DNA of 49,928 nucleotides from an uncultured Gammaproteobacteria bacterium (GTDB lineage: Bacteria > Pseudomonadota > Gammaproteobacteria > GCA-001735895), in contig CALCSG010000019.1 of the NCBI GenBank assembly GCA_937894085.1, positions 1-49,928 on the forward strand, given 5' to 3'. This document shows positions 30,180-35,498 of the stretch, piece after piece. The notes beneath the pieces are model-generated. The model saw only the letters and a list, made by a program, of their open reading frames with translations, searched no databases and was not told the origin of the DNA. Numbering within the stretch: position 1 is the stretch's first letter; each line of letters begins with the position of its first letter. The position numbers and the translations under genes are program-made.

Positions 30180-30260
30180 GTATATATTTCTAATATAATT
30201 TTCAGTTATTGTAATGCATATAAAAATTTTATGCAGCGACAGTACCGGGCATGTAGCACG

Positions 30261-30531
30261 GTGAGCATGAACTGGATGCCGGCCGTCGCTGAACACGAAG
30301 AATATGGCTTGAGTAAACGGGATATTACCCATAACATTAATTTTTAATGCTATGTACCGGCCACTGAAGAGTGGTGAACTCACTTTTGAAGATGCTAAAG
30401 CTGTACCAGGAAAATATGTTGAAATGAACGCGTATATGAATACCATCGTGCTGAATTCTAATTGCCCGCAGTTTAATAACTCCTGTAACGGATATAATCC
30501 AATACCAATTGAAATATTGATCTGGGATTAA
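30261..30531 (+). pseudogene. Broken DUF1989 gene (carboxyguanidine deiminase / urea carboxylase-associated protein remnant)
   Basis: Two fragments in different frames line up with the end of DUF1989 proteins. 30261-30347 gives EYGLSKRDITHNINF then a stop, like the family's ...RD..PNINFF. In a frame shifted by one, 30352-30531 gives SGELTFEDAKAVPGKYVEM, then LNSNCPQFNNSCNGYNPIPI and ends LIWD, the usual C-terminus with conserved SNCPQ and YNP. The N-terminal two thirds are absent. Such genes normally come as a pair just upstream of urea/guanidine carboxylase, exactly the position here, and their products act as carboxyguanidine deiminase. The identification is by recollection of the family pattern. 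Confidence 0.6.
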
Positions 30532-30551
30532 TGCATAGATATTGCGACACT

Positions 30552-30604
30552 AATGAATCGGCAGGACGACCTGTTGTTCATTTAAACTGGCAGGACCACC
30601 TGCT
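30552..30604 (+). promoter_or_regulatory. Guanidine-II (mini-ykkC) riboswitch-like tandem hairpins, second loop altered
   Basis: Hairpin 1 has CAGG-ACGA-CCTG at 30562-30573, extended by G-U and A-T pairs down to 30552 and 30582. Its ACGA tetraloop fits the ACGR loop that binds guanidine in this class. Hairpin 2 at 30589-30604 is GCAGG-ACCA-CCTGC, the same stem but ACCA in place of ACGR. About 15 bases separate them, within the class's usual linker length. The ATG of the carboxylase lies 17 bases downstream. Two near-identical small hairpins directly before a carboxylase gene of this family make the call likely. The altered loop should weaken binding and the loop-loop contact. Confidence 0.7.
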
Positions 30605-30621
30605 CTAACATTATAAAGCAC

Positions 30622-33600
30622 ATGTTTAAAAAAGTTCTGATCGCCAACCGGGGCGCCATTGCAGCCCGCATTATAAGCACATTAAAACAGATGCAATGTC
30701 CGTCGGTCGCTATCTATAATGAGGCCGATGCCGATTCGCTGCACGTACAACAGGCCGATGAAGCTTATTCACTGGGTTCTGGCAGTGTGGCTGAAACCTA
30801 CCTGAATCAGCAAAAAATATTCGATATCATACAAAAAACCGGAGCAGAAGCTGTTCATCCCGGTTACGGCTTTTTAAGTGAAAACCCTGAATTTGTCGAA
30901 CGCTGTGAACAGAATAATATTGCTTTCATTGGCCCCACTGCTGAACAGATATTGTTATTCGGCTTAAAACACAGCGCACGCGCACTGGCCAAACAAAACA
31001 ACATCCCGTTACTACCCGGTAGTGGACTGCTTGACAATATCGCAGAAGCACTTACTCGGGCAGATAATATTGGCTACCCGCTAATGTTAAAAAGCACCGC
31101 CGGCGGTGGTGGTATAGGCATGCAACTATGCTTGAATCAGCAGGAACTGGAAAAGTACTACGATTCGGTACGTCGATCAGGTGAAAATAATTTTTCCAAT
31201 AGCGCTGTGTTTATCGAAAAATTTATCGAATATGCACGCCATATCGAGGTACAGGTGTTTGGAGATGGCAGAGGTTTAGCCATCGCCATTGGTGAAAGAG
31301 ATTGTTCGACACAACGCAGAAACCAAAAAGTCATTGAAGAGGCTCCGGCACCGAATCTGAGCGATGAAGTTAGAAAAAAATTACAGGATACAGCTATACG
31401 CCTGGTCGAAGCGGTAAATTATCGTAACGCCGGTACGGTTGAATTTGTGTATGACCAGAAATCGGATCAATTTTATTTTCTCGAAGTTAACACACGCTTA
31501 CAGGTCGAATATGGCGTCACCGAACAGCTGTTTAATGTTGACCTGGTCGAATGGATGGTTAAACAGGCGGCCAATGAATTAGCCGACCTTCGAATACTTG
31601 CAAGCACATTAAAATCAACCGGTCATGCCATACAGGCTCGTGTGTATGCTGAAGACCCGAACAGGGATTTTCTACCTTCCTCCGGATTACTCAGTGAAGT
31701 TACATTCCCGCAAAAAACCAATTTACGTATAGACCACTGGCTTGAAACCGATATAGAAGTTTCTCCGCTGTTCGACCCCATGCTAGCCATAATGATAATC
31801 ACAGCTGATGATAGAAATAATGCTATACAACAACTGGTACAGGCACTGGCATTAACTTCACTGTATGGCATCGAAACCAATATTAACTATGTGCGGGAAA
31901 TTTTAAGCACCGATATTTTTCAACGCGGTGAAATATTCACCCGCTACCTGAATGACTTTAGAACCCAACCCTGTTCAATCGATGTTATCAGTTCCGGCAC
32001 CTTAACCTCGATACAGGACTACCCGGGTAGATCCGGCTACTGGGATGTAGGTGTACCGCCTTCCGGCCCATTCGATCACTATTCCTTCAACCTGGCTAAT
32101 CGTTTACTGAATAATTCGGTAGGCTGTGCCGGACTGGAAATCACCTTAAATGGCCCCAGTCTGCGTTTTAATAATGTTACCCGGATAGTATTAAGTGGAG
32201 CCGAGATGGAAGCCCATCTGGACGACCTGCCTTTACAATTCTGGCAGGTTATTAATGTTGAGGCTGGTCAAACCCTGAAAATAGGTAAAACGGTTGCATC
32301 CGGTGCCAGGGCATATCTCTGTATAAAAGGCGGGCTAAACTGTCCTGATTACCTGGGGTCAAAGTCAACCTTTACGCTGGGTCAGTTTGGAGGGCATTCC
32401 GGTCGAGAGATTCGCGTCGGTGATGTGTTACATTTTAATAAGCTTAAAGATAAATCAGAACCACTAATCCTGCCTTCCACCATGCTGCCCGAGATAACAA
32501 ATCACTGGCAACTGCGGGTAATTTACGGCCCGCACGGTTCACCCGATTTTTTTACTGATGACGACATAAAAACTTTCTTCGATAGTGAGTGGGAAATTCA
32601 TTATAACTCCACTCGAACAGGTATCCGCCTGGTCGGGCCTAAACCACAATGGGCACGAAAAGATGGCGGTGAAGCCGGTATGCATCCCTCCAATATTCAT
32701 GACAATGCCTATGCTATAGGTACTGTCGATTTTACCGGTGATATGCCGGTTATTCTCGGACCCGATAGCCCTTCGCTGGGGGGCTTTGTGTGTCCTGCCA
32801 CTGTAATAGCCGCCGACCTGTGGAAACTGGGACAGTTAAAAGCCGGTGATAAAGTGTGTTTTATCCCGGTATCCATTAATGATGCGGTGCAGCTAGAAAA
32901 AGCACAGTTAGATTCGATTGCTCAGCTGAATTTGACAACTCACAGTATTCAACGAGTTAATATTACTTCACCGGTTTTAAGGTGCATCGACAAAAATAAA
33001 TTCGGGGTACAGATAGTGTATCGCCCTTCCGGTGATAAAAACCTGCTGGTGGAGTTTGGCCCGTTAACCCTGGATATCGAATTACGCTTCCGCGTACAAG
33101 CATTGATGCTTGATCTTAAGCAGAAACAAGTTCAGGGGTTACTCGAATTAACTCCCGGCATTCGTTCATTGCAACTTCATTATGACAGCCAGCTTATTTC
33201 ACTGGATAAAATTTTTCTCCTGCTGGATGAAGCTCTTTCATCACAGAAAAATATTGATGCTGTGGATGTGCCCTCAAGAATCGTGCATATACCTTTGAGC
33301 TGGGATGATGAAGCCTGTCGACTTGCTACTGAAAAATACATGCAGTCAGTACGCAATGACGCTCCCTGGTGCCCGGATAATATTGAATTCATCCGTCGCA
33401 TTAACGGGCTGGAAAATGTGCAACAGGTTAAAGATATCGTTTTTGATGCATCCTACCTGGTGATGGGTCTGGGTGATGTTTACCTGGGAGCACCGATAGC
33501 CACTCCAATGGATCCGCGACACCGCCTGGTTACTACAAAATATAATCCAGCAAGAACCTGGACTGCCGAAAACTCTGTTGGTATTGGAGGCTCCTATTTA

Positions 33601-34224
33601 TGTGTTTACGGCATGGAAGGCCCTGGTGGATATCAGTTTATTGGAAGAACCTTACAGATGTGGAACCGTTACCAGCAGACCCGTGAATTTAAAAAACCCT
33701 GGTTATTGCGTTTTTTCGATCAGATAAAATTCTTTGAAGTAACAGCGGAAGAACTAAAAACTATTCGACATGATTTCCCCAAAGGCCGCTACCCCTTAAA
33801 AATAGAACAAACCCGCTTTAAGCTAAAAGAATATCAGGAGTACCTGCAACAGCATGAAGCCGACATTAAAAAATTTACAGCTCAACGGGAACTGGCTTTG
33901 GATGAAGAGCTACAACGCTGGATAGATTCAGGCCAGATAAATTTCAATTCGACACAGGATCTAATCAGTAACATTGCCGAAGAAGAATCCCTACCGCCAA
34001 ATTGTATGGCTATCGAAAGCCCGGTCGCCGGAAATGTCTGGAAGCTGCTGGTCAAACCCGGTGATGTAATTGAAAAAAATCAGCCTATGGTTATTCTGGA
34101 GTCGATGAAAATGGAAATCAAAATCGTTGCCCTACACTCCGGGACTGTTTATGCCATCAACCGGGAAGAAGGAAACCAGGTGCAAGCGGGTCAGCCCCTG
34201 ATAATATTACAGGAAGGATCTTAA
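30622..34224 (+). CDS. Biotin-dependent urea/guanidine carboxylase
   Basis: A 1200-residue single-chain carboxylase. Residues 1 to about 450 are a biotin carboxylase with STAGGGGIGM and EVNTRLQVEYGVTE (Tyr where most have His). About 455-760 is a KipA/AHS2-like half of the carboxyltransferase (SIQDYPGRSGYWDVGVPPSG), and about 770-1060 a KipI/AHS1-like half (GLGDVYLGAPIATPMDPRHR). The end is a biotinyl domain with ESMKMEI (biotin Lys about 1163). Such enzymes carboxylate urea to allophanate; many homologues prefer guanidine. The guanidine-type riboswitch and DUF1989 remnant upstream favour guanidine. No allophanate hydrolase or deiminase gene is intact nearby. The reading frame itself is undamaged. 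Confidence 0.9.
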   Translation: MFKKVLIANRGAIAARIISTLKQMQCPSVAIYNEADADSLHVQQADEAYSLGSGSVAETYLNQQKIFDIIQKTGAEAVHPGYGFLSENPEFVERCEQNNIAFIGPTAEQILLFGLKHSARALAKQNNIPLLPGSGLLDNIAEALTRADNIGYPLMLKSTAGGGGIGMQLCLNQQELEKYYDSVRRSGENNFSNSAVFIEKFIEYARHIEVQVFGDGRGLAIAIGERDCSTQRRNQKVIEEAPAPNLSDEVRKKLQDTAIRLVEAVNYRNAGTVEFVYDQKSDQFYFLEVNTRLQVEYGVTEQLFNVDLVEWMVKQAANELADLRILASTLKSTGHAIQARVYAEDPNRDFLPSSGLLSEVTFPQKTNLRIDHWLETDIEVSPLFDPMLAIMIITADDRNNAIQQLVQALALTSLYGIETNINYVREILSTDIFQRGEIFTRYLNDFRTQPCSIDVISSGTLTSIQDYPGRSGYWDVGVPPSGPFDHYSFNLANRLLNNSVGCAGLEITLNGPSLRFNNVTRIVLSGAEMEAHLDDLPLQFWQVINVEAGQTLKIGKTVASGARAYLCIKGGLNCPDYLGSKSTFTLGQFGGHSGREIRVGDVLHFNKLKDKSEPLILPSTMLPEITNHWQLRVIYGPHGSPDFFTDDDIKTFFDSEWEIHYNSTRTGIRLVGPKPQWARKDGGEAGMHPSNIHDNAYAIGTVDFTGDMPVILGPDSPSLGGFVCPATVIAADLWKLGQLKAGDKVCFIPVSINDAVQLEKAQLDSIAQLNLTTHSIQRVNITSPVLRCIDKNKFGVQIVYRPSGDKNLLVEFGPLTLDIELRFRVQALMLDLKQKQVQGLLELTPGIRSLQLHYDSQLISLDKIFLLLDEALSSQKNIDAVDVPSRIVHIPLSWDDEACRLATEKYMQSVRNDAPWCPDNIEFIRRINGLENVQQVKDIVFDASYLVMGLGDVYLGAPIATPMDPRHRLVTTKYNPARTWTAENSVGIGGSYLCVYGMEGPGGYQFIGRTLQMWNRYQQTREFKKPWLLRFFDQIKFFEVTAEELKTIRHDFPKGRYPLKIEQTRFKLKEYQEYLQQHEADIKKFTAQRELALDEELQRWIDSGQINFNSTQDLISNIAEEESLPPNCMAIESPVAGNVWKLLVKPGDVIEKNQPMVILESMKMEIKIVALHSGTVYAINREEGNQVQAGQPLIILQEGS

Positions 34225-34337: not shown

Positions 34338-35498
34338 ATGACGACTGGTCCAAGAGAAATTACAACACCCTTTCGCCCTATTCCACTGGATGTACCGGAA
34401 GGCATGAAACCGAATGAGTTTTTCAATAGTACAGAAAACCTCAATGATCTGGAAAATAATAACGGTATATTGCGCAACGATGAAAATCTATTGATGTATC
34501 GTAAAGCGTTAGGCCATTCCAATATTTTCGACACTTCAATAATTTACAACACATCAAAAATCATTCTCGACCCGTTGGGCAGACCGGTAAGAAGAACTCA
34601 GGTACCCGAAAATGTACGTAATGTCTGGAACCGAATGAACCTGATTTTAATTGGGTACATGCAGGAAACATTTCCAGATCCTGAAAATTACCTGATACTT
34701 TGTGGAGAAGCGAGTTTGGACGCCACCTGGCCTATGACCTCTCCAGGCGTTCCCAGCATTCGAATGTTACACAATCATTTTATCGTGTTCGATAAGCAGC
34801 AGTTACGCGATGCCCAGCTGGCCAAAAAAGATAATCCTAACCTGACCGATGGCGGACAACACAGCCTGTTTCAAAGTTATATGCACGATGCTTACTGCTC
34901 TTTTTTTGAAACTCTCGATTTTGATATTTTAAAACCCACCATCGGCGACTCTTCCCAGTTAAAGTTAACCGGTTACCCTCAGGGTCTGCCCTGCTGGGAA
35001 ATAGAAGGTGGTCTGGATAGCATTAAAGAAGTTAAATTCTGGAAAGAATACGATCAGATTTTAAAAGGGTTTATCGATTTCTACCGTACATTTTTCAGCC
35101 AGGTATCATCACGTAACAGTAATTTGCCCAGAGACGTTTACTTCGAAGATCAGGTCATCGAAAAATTATTGTTTAACAATGATTTCCTGAGCACAGCAAA
35201 AATAGTGCGCGATCAATGTATTAAAGATGCAAAATATGCCAATTCAATTCGTTGGCAACCCGCTTTCAAGCAACTGATATACAGAAACGATGCGGGTAAA
35301 TGGATAGTGACGATCAGTCAGAATTCGATCGGAAATGCCATCACGGAATTACTCGGTGTCGTGGTCAAACGAACACCCGATGCTGAAGCCTATGAAAAAG
35401 CTGAACCAAAACTCATAGAGAGACTGATGGAAGTTAGACAAAGATTGATAGATGCCGATCTTGGTAGCCCGATAGCAACTGATTACTGGCCCGGATAA
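34338..35498 (+). CDS. Hypothetical protein downstream of the carboxylase
   Basis: 386 residues, no signal peptide or membrane helix, so probably cytoplasmic. I recognise no family. Notable segments are PTSPGVPSIRMLHNHFIVFD-like His-rich sequence around 138-155 (actual text PGVPSIRMLHNHFIVF), KLTGYPQGLPCWEIEGGLD in the middle and a helical C-terminal region. The HNH-containing strand could be a catalytic or metal site, but this is a guess. It follows the carboxylase by 113 bases on the same strand, so co-transcription is possible, and is followed by a tiny acidic frame. No good Shine-Dalgarno precedes the ATG at 34338. Confidence 0.6.
   Translation: MTTGPREITTPFRPIPLDVPEGMKPNEFFNSTENLNDLENNNGILRNDENLLMYRKALGHSNIFDTSIIYNTSKIILDPLGRPVRRTQVPENVRNVWNRMNLILIGYMQETFPDPENYLILCGEASLDATWPMTSPGVPSIRMLHNHFIVFDKQQLRDAQLAKKDNPNLTDGGQHSLFQSYMHDAYCSFFETLDFDILKPTIGDSSQLKLTGYPQGLPCWEIEGGLDSIKEVKFWKEYDQILKGFIDFYRTFFSQVSSRNSNLPRDVYFEDQVIEKLLFNNDFLSTAKIVRDQCIKDAKYANSIRWQPAFKQLIYRNDAGKWIVTISQNSIGNAITELLGVVVKRTPDAEAYEKAEPKLIERLMEVRQRLIDADLGSPIATDYWPG

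Follow-up and report, generated by a model that had tools for sequence, protein, structure and literature searches.

A guanidine-II riboswitch derivative with an altered second loop, probably decaying together with its dismantled operon in an uncultured gammaproteobacterium

The stretch of DNA analysed here, referred to as the window (49,928 nucleotides from an uncultured Gammaproteobacteria bacterium, contig CALCSG010000019.1), carries a homologue of the guanidine-II riboswitches directly ahead of a carboxylase gene. It is considered probable that this riboswitch is decaying together with its dismantled operon and that its response to guanidine has been lost or strongly weakened. The element comprises two hairpins with matching stems at 30559-30604, with the loops ACGA and ACCA, and positions 30558-30604 of the window read TCGGCAGGACGACCTGTTGTTCATTTAAACTGGCAGGACCACCTGCT. 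Two stem-loops sharing the stem sequence and differing in this way in their loops had been described in a first-pass annotation of the same DNA; the description was confirmed by direct reading, and the coordinates given there (30552-30604) proved right to within a few bases. The features of the locus are as follows.

30251-30532, forward strand: remnant of a cgdA pseudogene (carboxyguanidine deiminase, TIGR03424), roughly its final 90 codons, frameshifted near 30367
30559-30576, forward strand: hairpin P1, CGGCAGG-ACGA-CCTGTTG, seven pairs including two G-U, with the canonical ACGA loop
30577-30588, forward strand: linker of 12 nt
30589-30604, forward strand: hairpin P2, GGCAGG-ACCA-CCTGCT, six pairs, with the variant loop ACCA
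30622-34224, forward strand: gene of a guanidine-type urea/guanidine carboxylase, 1200 aa, frame intact, TIGR02712 match

The third base of loop 2 lies at position 30597 and is C where G is expected. The pairs adjacent to the loop are identical in P1 and P2 (CAGG/CCTG). In the predicted fold the first six bases of the linker lengthen the P1 stem, leaving a linker of six nucleotides, and the ribosome site is mostly unpaired; the SD sequence is weak and no clear anti-SD pairing was seen in this fold. A promoter scan gave no more matches than were obtained in shuffled sequences.

With Rfam models at the gathering threshold no match was returned in the whole window. Under an E-value threshold, RF01068 (Guanidine-II) was the single match in 400 bases, with 20.6 bits and E 0.05 over the whole model (1-48), which falls below the gathering score of this family (32 bits). 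The covariance-model search proposed in the first-pass annotation has therefore given a full-length match, though one beneath the cut-off. The cut-off itself is judged to be strict, because four relatives with two ACGR hairpins each (L006, L008, L011 and L014) also remain unlisted at the gathering threshold. Across its own 6-Mb genome the window element is the best RF01068 match. A separate covariance model was built from 60 elements located before the carboxylase genes of relatives, the window being left out; it scored the window element at 28.3 bits (E 4.5e-4 in the window) as against 38-47 bits in the close relatives L005, L006, L155 and L156, and no further match was found with it in the 6-Mb genome up to E 10. 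In nucleotide alignment with L005, window positions 30251-30603 are covered, spanning the end of the upstream gene (cgdA) and both hairpins, and the same holds for L156. This colinear alignment, together with the model matches, excludes chance and marks the hairpins as the same element by descent, which upholds the earlier assignment to the guanidine-II family. The notion that the hairpins resemble a riboswitch only by chance can draw on the Rfam score under the gathering cut-off and on a fold only moderately better than that of shuffled sequences (z -2.0), but its probability is practically negligible: the best match of the genome directly precedes the one carboxylase of that family found in this genome at E 1e-100, and the alignment with the riboswitch of L005 and L156 at the same place refutes it in practice. 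Among the features by which RF01068 members are recognised, two hairpins with a short linker, ACGR in hairpin 1 (as ACGA), a site before a guanidine-related gene and common descent are present, while hairpin 2 has ACCA in place of ACGR and the gathering score of 32 bits is not reached. It is better described as a degenerate derivative, homologous to guanidine-II riboswitches.

The alteration of loop 2 has no counterpart among the relatives used for the model. Loop 1 reads ACGA in 54 of the 60 relatives, ACGG in five and ACGT in one; for loop 2 the counts are 44 (ACGA), 14 (ACGG) and two (ACGC), so that every one of the 120 loops has G as its third base. In L005, the nearest relative (carboxylase 75% identical), the loops are ACGA and ACGG, and the two same-genus genomes have ACGA/ACGG (G002, 42.5 bits) and ACGA/ACGA (G003, 33.7 bits). 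The ACCA variant was not met again in the order to which the window belongs, where the gene turned up in just two other members, both with ACGR loops. Since the relatives have G at this place, the change from G to C at 30597 is derived and very rare; the comparison of loop 2 with related genomes, suggested in the first-pass annotation, thus speaks for a derived base against relatives reading ACGA or ACGG. The apparent pairs in L023 and L025 were excluded from these comparisons, both being located inside the cgdA coding sequence. When 369 genomes of the class were searched with the bare pattern GGACGRCC-N-GGACHRCC and 30 loci were read, only in the window did both stems exceed four pairs (7 and 6). 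As a finder of variants the pattern scan for the mutated pair was discarded, its matches being at chance level and a reversed control pattern matching more often.

It is highly unlikely that C at 30597 is a base error of the draft assembly and that the true loop is ACGA. Such an error would be in keeping with a species represented by one genome, a draft in 567 contigs, and with the G found at the equivalent position in 60 of 60 relatives; however, the locus also shows unrelated decay (frameshift, truncation) which one base error leaves unexplained, and an independent ACCA hairpin is present in the locus L176, described below. Variation at the fourth loop position outside ACGR was noted separately. 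Loop 2 is ACGC in L166:5098-5146 and loop 1 is ACGT in L064:3922-3976. In L155:5247-5295 (genome G092) loop 2 is likewise ACGC, P1 has an A-U closing pair, and the guanidine-II element is separated from the carboxylase start by an inverted-repeat insert.

What the altered base would mean for the RNA can be considered from published structures. In the crystals, each loop contributes its central C and G to pairs with G and C of its partner, guanidine binds O6 and N7 of the loop G, and both sites are created by the loop-loop contact; each ligand touches one loop only, and the G9-C8' pair shapes the P1 site (PMC5486947). As far as the work of Sherlock 2017 is cited in PMC5486947, a change in either loop weakened the protection of both loops. 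In a vertebrate RNA, the hairpin H4 with a natural C-to-U loop mutation does not bind, while its proposed partner H5 does (PMC12335538). Because loop 2 of the window lacks the G that both binds ligand and pairs across, the second ligand site and one cross-loop pair should be lost, if the published structure (PMC5486947) applies: the C of loop 1 would face C and have no partner, and a single cross-loop G-C pair would be possible. For the G of loop 1, pairing with C2 of loop 2 is still possible and site 1 might form, and the outcome should fall somewhere from a dead switch to a weak switch with one site. The first-pass annotation had spoken of a half-broken aptamer, which may mean nearly fully broken, given that altering either loop weakens the protection of both.

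The surroundings of the element point to the dismantling of the guanidine pathway. The order in relatives is importer, cgdB, cgdA, guanidine-II element, carboxylase and atzF (allophanate hydrolase); those examined share the order cgdB, cgdA, carboxylase, followed by atzF wherever the available sequence is long enough. In most relatives the operon is preceded by a guanidine-I riboswitch, which was located on the contig of the operon in G002, G003, G092, G228 and G061. The layout agrees with what has been published on operons of this kind (PMC12186494). At the window locus neither importer nor cgdB nor atzF was found, and no atzF relative lies within the window. Of cgdA only the last third is left, as two pieces (30270-30371 and 30367-30528, about 70% identical to L005); since these lie in different frames, the remnant is called a frameshifted stub. 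It accounts for the single TIGR03424 match of the genome (model positions 146-198), compared with two full matches each in G002, G003 and G036, and no other cgd gene was found in this genome, nor was a guanidine-I element. Beyond the stub lies an opposite-strand frame resembling cytochrome c (CHVCH motif) with no family match, and directly after the carboxylase an unrelated open frame of 386 aa (34338-35498) with no Pfam or NCBIfam match. The assembly being a draft of 567 contigs, operon genes missing here could lie in gaps. An allophanate hydrolase relative does exist on another contig of the genome (G000:C21:27032-28272; L145, L151), behind an ABC transporter substrate-binding protein and cut by the contig end, so that a carboxylated product may still find some use; the relative is 42% identical to the L005 protein and is not the usual atzF of this operon. 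The first-pass annotation had presented the element above all as an informative natural half-aptamer, a view which the frameshifted cgdA stub, the genes absent at the locus and the failure to find guanidine-I do not sustain: because the operon around it is in ruins, the change in loop 2 is explained more simply by loss of constraint.

The carboxylase gene, which starts 17 nt downstream of P2, is far better preserved. Its product matches TIGR02712 with 1791.9 bits (cut-off 1303.85) in full domain order, and the biotin site ESMKME is kept. Asp703 occupies what we take, from the yeast enzyme, to be the specificity position, the window reading TVDFTGD and the yeast urea enzyme 3va7 AINFTGD. Guanidine carboxylases are marked by Asp and urea carboxylases by Asn at this position (PMC12186494). 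In an alignment of 18 carboxylases, 10 columns that are invariant elsewhere are changed in the window protein alone, against 4.5 expected from the branch-length rate (Poisson p 0.017). Two of the changes affect conserved biotin carboxylase stretches: Tyr replaces His297 beside the QVEH motif, which is itself conserved, and Ile replaces Lys390. With 18 sequences only, this excess may be read as a weak sign of relaxed constraint. The dN/dS ratio was unusable owing to saturated synonymous sites. Two side observations concern the same protein family. The window carboxylase is about 75% identical to the carboxylases of genomes from another taxonomic family (G092, G332, G228) and to that of L005, but only about 61% to those of the same genus (G002, G003), a pattern which suggests horizontal transfer or old paralogy. 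In L006, Asn is aligned to window residue 703, although the carboxylase is preceded by both cgd genes and by a guanidine-II element that is intact; a switch towards urea is possible there.

The course of events that would account for these data is the following. The ancestral element would have been a guanidine-II riboswitch controlling the translation of the carboxylase. With ACCA in P2, guanidine would no longer steady the contact of P1 and P2 enough to switch translation; the carboxylase would then probably be made at a constant low level, and the normal route would presumably be closed to its product. Loss of function is taken as the most likely state because the guanidine pathway has been dismantled. 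Apart from the allophanate hydrolase relative on another contig, the draft state of the genome and the weakness of the excess of carboxylase changes, two features run counter to decay. The carboxylase seems to be still selected or only recently orphaned, its frame of 1200 codons being open with the specificity Asp and the biotin site kept. The RNA, for its part, appears to have been kept in shape until recently, since both stems are intact and P1 differs from that of L005 by a paired change of G-C to A-T. It can be asked, then, whether the element is still a working riboswitch with one site, in which the P1 site is kept (G3 of loop 1 pairing with C2 of loop 2), one guanidine is bound without cooperativity and the carboxylase is regulated, perhaps more weakly. 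This is thought unlikely, although it deserves some weight. It is favoured by the one-loop contact of each ligand and the G9-C8' pair that would still be possible (PMC5486947), by the binding of vertebrate H5 beside a naturally mutated H4 (PMC12335538), and by the intact stems and the open carboxylase frame; but of the two cross pairs just one is left, the one-loop changes cited from the published work weakened both loops, the predicted extension of P1 shortens the linker, and with the remaining pathway and guanidine-I gone there is little obvious left to select for regulation. That the window holds a natural bacterial guanidine-II RNA binding one guanidine at P1, with P2 merely as a pairing partner, and still regulating an orphaned carboxylase in a non-cooperative manner, is rated as quite doubtful.

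A second ACCA hairpin, an independent case of this loop, was found in a distant relative (L176:1468-1486; G061:C9). It is a lone strong hairpin, GGGCGGG-ACCA-CCCGCCC, located before the carboxylase without a P1 partner, and its loop begins 26 bases ahead of the carboxylase start codon. Two guanidine-I elements occur on that contig and cgdA ends just upstream of the hairpin; the L176 family includes one more genome, without a carboxylase gene. An ACCA hairpin has thus been encountered twice, each time in an otherwise damaged or orphaned element, which agrees with decay and not with a new working type, though two cases prove little. This second hairpin is also what might lend colour to the proposal that the altered loop works with a different ligand or regulator. 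The chance of this is very remote, given that no conservation is seen (the two cases are scattered, P1 is missing in one of them, and relatives show neither) and that the adjoining gene is of the ordinary guanidine type.

Compared with the guanidine-II riboswitch proper (mini-ykkC, RF01068), the window element has the same two tetraloop hairpins, a 12-nt linker, an ACGA loop 1 and a position directly before a guanidine carboxylase gene, and it is homologous to the riboswitch at the same place in L005, L006 and L156. It differs in having ACCA and not ACGR in loop 2, in scoring below the Rfam cut-off and in the loss of the upstream and downstream operon. The vertebrate guanidine-II-like hairpins H4/H5 of CA8 (PMC12335538) are likewise a natural pair in which one loop has a disabling base change; there, however, C is replaced by U and a wobble pair was proposed by the authors, whereas the change in the window is from G to C, which permits no standard pair, and is placed in a bacterial 5' region. 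Among the papers searched on decaying riboswitches, nothing was found for the guanidine-II class. The locus can be regarded as a snapshot of the loss of a two-site riboswitch, in which the loop base with a dual role (ligand binding and cross pairing) changes, the stems stay and the operon crumbles. A natural sequence with one dead and one intact loop could also be used directly to test whether a single site is enough, a question left open by published E. coli and vertebrate work. It is a warning, too, that a convincing element beside a convincing gene is no guarantee that the locus still senses guanidine. In enterobacterial guanidine operons, guanidine-I is found with importer and deiminase and guanidine-II with carboxylase and allophanate hydrolase (PMC12186494). 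The placement of the guanidine-II element between cgdA and carboxylase is shared by the window, which unlike those operons keeps only the cgdA stub, the element and the carboxylase. A different arrangement was seen in L022:2443-2488, where the guanidine-II element precedes cgdB/cgdA instead of being located between cgdA and carboxylase.
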